Shown: positions 1-32,229 of the stretch, one piece after another | Numbering within the stretch: position 1 is the first letter of the stretch | How the letters are laid out: every line of letters starts with the position of its first letter | Source: Hyperoplus lanceolatus | Taxonomy: Eukaryota > Chordata > Actinopteri > Uranoscopiformes > Ammodytidae | Direction: 5' to 3' | Length of the DNA: 64,000 nt | NCBI GenBank assembly: GCA_026929865.2 | Contig: CM049397.1 | Span: 4,622,501-4,686,500, forward strand | The notes under the pieces: generated by a model | Told to the model about the DNA's origin: nothing | The model's database searches: none | What the model saw: only the letters and a program-made list of their open reading frames with translations | Program-made: the position numbers and the translations under genes

Positions 1-32229
<32,229 letters not shown>

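Follow-up and report, generated by a model that had tools for sequence, protein, structure and literature searches.

In an intron of a fish citron gene there is a 24-nt stretch that can be read as an exon. The question it raises is whether it is one and, if so, what the eight residues that it encodes would do in the protein. The sequence analysed here (the window) is a stretch of 64,000 nt from the 807 Mb genome of Hyperoplus lanceolatus (GCA_026929865.2, CM049397.1, positions 4,622,501 to 4,686,500). Our main reading, to which we give roughly two chances in three, is that positions 17442-17465 are a genuine and old in-frame cassette microexon that would dock protein phosphatase 1 (PP1) when it is included. 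The exon is read from the sequence of two gene copies, and that it is optional and docks PP1 is what we infer. Papers are cited by PMC number for the parts consulted.

Locus and gene identity

The first 32 kb of the window hold the 3' part of a gene that we take to be citron (cit). The name comes from the original prediction, and the searches themselves gave no gene name. The assignment is based on an exon series that is collinear with a second locus in the genome and on a Pfam match of the joined translation to the C1 domain (C1_1, E 3.1e-6, 27.4 bits with a cut-off of 26.5). A PDB search with the C1 region returned four distinct sequences, which were protein kinase C iota, protein kinase C theta, Unc-13 A and Rac GTPase-activating protein 1.

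The features are collected in Table 1. The upstream exon ends at CTGAGG/GTGAGT and the C1 exon starts at ATTCAG/AGTATAGCC. The start given for the upstream exon was chosen by eye to match the phase of the second copy, and there is an alternative AG at 17098.

Table 1. Citron features in the window, with phases and counterparts in the second citron gene.
Feature	Position	Strand	Remarks
Citron exon upstream of the microexon	17090..17248	+	Phase 1 at end; 63% identity to its counterpart in the second citron gene
3' splice site CAG	17439..17441	+	Identical in the second copy
24-nt microexon	17442..17465	+	Adds RRRVTFEK; conserved at L013:6341-6364 of the second citron gene
5' splice site GTAAGTT	17466..17472	+	Identical in the second copy
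Citron exon downstream of the microexon, start of the C1 domain (YSRRLKD...)	19484..19663	+	Pfam C1_1 on the joined translation
45-nt citron exon	24024-24068	+	Phase 0 at either end; the neighbouring exons end at 22673 and start at 25625

Just before the C1 domain, the C1 exon has an Arg/Glu/Asp-rich stretch of 15 residues (19507-19551) that is much shorter in the second copy (KERMHHN) and is apparently a simple-repeat expansion. The intron that holds the microexon has inverted recurring stretches at 17960-18780, for example CATTTCATTTGTACAGA at 18203 with its complement at 18640 (found by eye), and this looks like a mobile-element insertion that lengthened the intron.

An in-frame exon with ordinary splice sites

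At 17422-17480 the letters read ...AAACACCTTTCAG ahead of the exon, AGAGAAGGAGGGTCACTTTTGAAA for the exon itself and GTAAGTTGTC after it. The exon is free of stop codons and lies between CAG and GTAAGT, and at 24 nt it falls within the definition of a microexon as 30 nt or less (PMC7821500). Its phase fits both neighbours and its length keeps the frame with or without it. With the exon included, the codons GAG AGA AGG AGG GTC ACT TTT GAA AAG are read as E RRRVTFEK, and the segment before the C1 domain grows from 11 to 19 residues. The original prediction had the coordinates, the length and the reading frame right, as the sequence and the junctions at 17248 and 19484 show. The translations also confirmed that the phases are compatible with both neighbours and that the eight-residue insert before the C1 domain carries an RVTF motif. 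Because the neighbours join in frame without the microexon, we take it to be optional.

The acceptor and donor had been called strong. Both are present, with 4.2 bits each under rough weight matrices, but that is only ordinary strength: 109 of the 4335 AGs in the window are as good as this acceptor (itself counted), and 51 of the 3968 GTs score at least as well as this donor. These splice sites are decent and not outstanding. On the + strand of the window, for exon lengths of 3-51, there are seven AG...GT pairs at least this good at both sites, this one and six others, and in three of the seven the length is divisible by three. With six other pairs scoring equally, splice-site strength alone is no proof of an exon.

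The same exon in a second citron gene

Searching the genome at the protein level with the C1 region gave four matches, of which two were the window exons and two were at a second locus on contig C2. With the upstream exon as query there was one other match in the genome, also on C2. In this second citron gene the C1 exon lies at C2:30173910 (80% identical) and the upstream exon at C2:30172415. The homologous intron (L013:5561-6899) contains CAG/AAAAGAGGAGGGTCACCTTTGAAA/GTAAGT. The exon in it, at C2:30173340-30173363, is again 24 nt long and in the same phase. It encodes KRRVTFEK, giving E-KRRVTFEK-F.

A blastn comparison of the two introns gave a single significant alignment. It was 34 bp long, took in the microexon with its splice sites and had an E of 1.1e-7; the next alignment had 0.11. 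The 32-mer made up of AG, the exon and GTAAGT matches the second gene's intron at 28 of 32 bases. By comparison, 1000 Markov shuffles of this intron reached 22 at best, and 86 overlapping segments from elsewhere in the window reached 20. The exon is identical between the copies at 20 of 24 positions, while farther than 10 nt into the intron on either side 1-5 bases agree in each block of 10. Two of the four exon differences are synonymous (GAG/GAA and ACT/ACC) and the other two fall within one codon (R/K).

One explanation is that the stretch is a pseudo-exon that arose in the intron by chance, and the six equally good AG...GT pairs would allow for that. However, exon, phase and motif recur in a second citron gene, in an intron that otherwise has no significant alignment with its counterpart in the window, and none of the 1000 shuffles or 86 segments reached 28 of 32. 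We reject this explanation as extremely unlikely. Another is that the conserved block is a noncoding splicing or other regulatory element. The purine-rich GAGAAGGAGG could act as a splicing enhancer, but conservation stops at the splice sites, and the differences inside the exon are two synonymous changes plus the pair that gives R/K. We consider this very unlikely too.

We also compared the match with the general divergence of the two genes. In 30 aligned and trimmed segments (1395 codons) they have 77% protein identity and a dS of 1.32, with 207 of 427 four-fold sites identical; an untrimmed count of 26 segments gave a dS of 1.35 and 198 of 411 four-fold sites. At the rate of the four-fold sites, a neutral 24-mer would have at least 20 identities with a probability of 5e-4. 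We use this exon-only value rather than the 4e-6 for 28 of 32 because the latter counts constrained splice sites. The dS suggests that the two citron genes fit an origin in the teleost genome duplication.

Since the same exon, phase and motif sit in the second citron gene, we judge the microexon to be genuine and old, older than the split of the two genes. The original prediction had staked itself in part on conservation of the 24 bases and the motif, and these are conserved in the one comparison made, that between the two citron genes of this genome.

A degenerate pattern of the exon and its splice sites matched the genome only at the two citron copies, and its reversed control gave 0. The pattern was written after both copies were known, so it shows that there is no third match and is not independent support. 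In a blastn control that compared the citron regions of the two loci, 33 of the 39 matches were in masked exons. Three of the remaining six were in homologous introns, and these were an unmasked coding exon at 3727-3782, the microexon and the 45-nt exon of Table 1. A genome search for a retrocopy already spliced across the inclusion junction, with up to 1 mismatch allowed, gave 0 matches; this is weak counter-evidence because retrocopies are rare. Scans of viral contigs with the C1 region (two pattern stretches, no relative) and of prokaryote genomes with the microexon pattern (0) were uninformative because vertebrates are not expected in those collections.

Candidate signals for regulated splicing

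The signals for SRRM4 and RBFOX are a UGC just upstream of an exon and a GCATG just downstream of it. The second copy has TTGCT 13 nt upstream of the microexon and TGCATG boxes 36 and 54 nt downstream (L013:6399-6423). Two downstream boxes were reached in 5 of 2000 shuffles, with nine motifs tried per copy. In the window copy, TGC is absent from the last 60 upstream bases and GCATG from the first 100 downstream bases. PMC7821500 credits SRRM4 and RBFOX1 with coordinating microexons, and neuronal inclusion of the second-copy microexon is plausible.

Splicing control may have diverged between the two citron genes, with RBFOX- and SRRM4-like signals in the second copy only.

It could also be that the exon is real without being a switch, in that most fish citron transcripts include it. 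In favour of this, the window copy has no recognised neuronal splicing signal nearby. However, the 24-nt exon is symmetric and can be skipped without a frame change in both copies, the second copy has neuron-type signals, and human citron, which we take to read TPEEF-SRRLKE, lacks the insert. A constitutive exon is therefore unlikely in our judgement, and we keep to a cassette exon.

A PP1-docking-type motif in the insert

The published RVxF consensus is [K/R]x(0-1)[V/I]x[F/W] (PMC6406801). RVTF in both microexon copies matches it, which bears out the RVxF-type reading of the original prediction. There is also a stricter pattern, [HKR][ACHKMNQRSTV]V[CHKNQRST][FW], and RRVTF in both copies agrees with that as well. 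In the 30 other aligned segments of the two genes (1576 and 1611 aa, covering the part of citron in the window, with the N-terminal part outside) there was no match to the strict pattern. It occurs in 0.09% of open 10-codon stretches drawn at random from the window and in 0.15% of composition shuffles. The loose pattern is common, at 1.6% and 2.5% respectively.

PhiPhi and similar further contacts with PP1 are frequent and not required. By eye there is no clear PhiPhi contact after RVTF, and the next residues are basic (EKYSRRLK and EKFGRRVK). A PDB search with a 30-residue insert peptide gave 0 matches. In an exon farther upstream, at 14495-14611, both citron copies have KLIDF, a loose RVxF match that is probably structural and not a docking site.

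RRxT is a consensus of the basophilic-kinase type. The Thr of the microexon is at the x position of RVxF and in the window copy is preceded by R-R-R-V. As far as the two copies can be read, the Thr of a conserved PP1-docking-type motif thus sits in a basophilic-kinase context.

This context suggests a different job for a real microexon. It could be a phosphosite (R-R-x-T, for Aurora B, PKA or ROCK-type kinases), a patch of basic residues next to the C1 domain or a site for a non-PP1 partner, with the RVxF match a coincidence. RRVT suits basophilic kinases by their consensus, the insert lies directly before C1 among further basic residues, and the PhiPhi contact is not clear. However, a kinase site does not need V-T-F, yet V-T-F-E-K is kept in full and the change in the Thr codon is synonymous, and a strict RVxF arises in only about 0.1% of random open 10-codon stretches. 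We hold such another job to be rather unlikely.

Proposed mechanism

For PP1 docking, we propose the following. Inclusion would add K/R-R-R-V-T-F-E-K to the linker that immediately precedes the C1 domain, and the inserted segment would dock the PP1 catalytic subunit via its RVxF pocket. Docking would recruit PP1 to citron, which for citron kinase means the midbody and for neuronal citron the postsynapse. Because the Thr stands in an R-R-x-T context, it could be a substrate of a basophilic kinase (Aurora B, PKA or a citron/ROCK-type kinase), and its phosphorylation could free PP1 in the way published for KNL1. Neuronal regulation of inclusion is probable, at least for the second copy.

We favor PP1 docking by the inclusion isoform as the leading candidate mechanism because of the fit to RVxF, the precedents for phospho-control of RVxF motifs and a shared location at the midbody ring. 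Phosphorylation of RVxF motifs by Aurora B has been reported to abolish PP1 binding (PMC6406801), and in KNL1 phosphorylation by Aurora B inhibits it (PMC6715587). PP1 alpha, beta and gamma are found at the midbody ring, where citron kinase also sits (PMC6778137). The consulted parts of that paper on midbody PP1 give an RVxF-like site for MKLP1 and none for citron. In a 2026 paper on citron kinase (PMC13282566), the word RVxF is absent from the consulted main text.

Taken a step further, citron would be an alternatively spliced PP1-targeting subunit, in which inclusion of the microexon would make a PP1 holoenzyme from a midbody or postsynaptic kinase scaffold and phosphorylation of the Thr would serve as a second off-switch. 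We see the chances for and against this wider proposal as evenly balanced. As to the overall reading first made of this locus, the in-frame microexon, the RVTF, its place before C1 and its conservation in the second citron gene stand, and the rest we infer.

Relation to known systems

The citron exon is a motif-carrying microexon, which is a known kind, with an unusual cargo. It is like the neuronal microexons that SRRM3/4 and RBFOX control in its size, in being divisible by three, in its symmetric phase and in its conserved peptide. In the second citron copy only, it also has the RBFOX-like boxes and the UGC. Unlike them, it lacks their signals in the window copy, and its neural inclusion is a prediction.

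The PP1-docking motif of Ki-67 and KNL1 is RVSF. R-V-T-F, the core of the citron motif, is also the RVxF core of Repo-Man (PMC4032110). As in Repo-Man, Ki-67 and KNL1, basic residues precede the motif, and as in KNL1 there is a phosphorylatable Thr/Ser at the x position. Unlike in these three proteins, the citron motif is on a microexon, has by eye no flanking PhiPhi or KiR-SLiM, and is a predicted docking site. MKLP1 has a VQF site that binds PP1beta and is termed a sub-optimal motif (PMC6778137), and citron would resemble it in bringing PP1 to a midbody protein through an RVxF-type site. Unlike the citron insert, the MKLP1 site is not described in the consulted parts of that paper as a spliced insert. 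The same paper offers a two-step handover as only one possible explanation for how PP1beta reaches MKLP1.

Under the terms searched, citron is not named in the main texts of the microexon papers PMC7821500, PMC12626420 and PMC12626424. A search of one literature collection found no paper on a citron microexon and none on RVxF together with microexons. These searches covered main texts, so the exon may already be catalogued in supplementary microexon lists.

If the main reading is true, a protein of the midbody and the synapse would join two lines of work, one on microexons that switch short linear motifs and one on RVxF motifs as phospho-gated docking sites for PP1. Under the wider proposal, docking of a phosphatase would be subject to two layers of control, splicing and a kinase.

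A second small conserved exon

The 45-nt exon encodes 15 residues and has a counterpart in the second citron gene, AGASKRQKNLSPLVQ, at C2:30176499-30176543. The blastn alignment of this exon between the two loci had an E of 0.16. The docking motif type of PP2A-B56 is LxxIxE, and LSPLVQ in the 45-nt exon resembles this type without fitting it.
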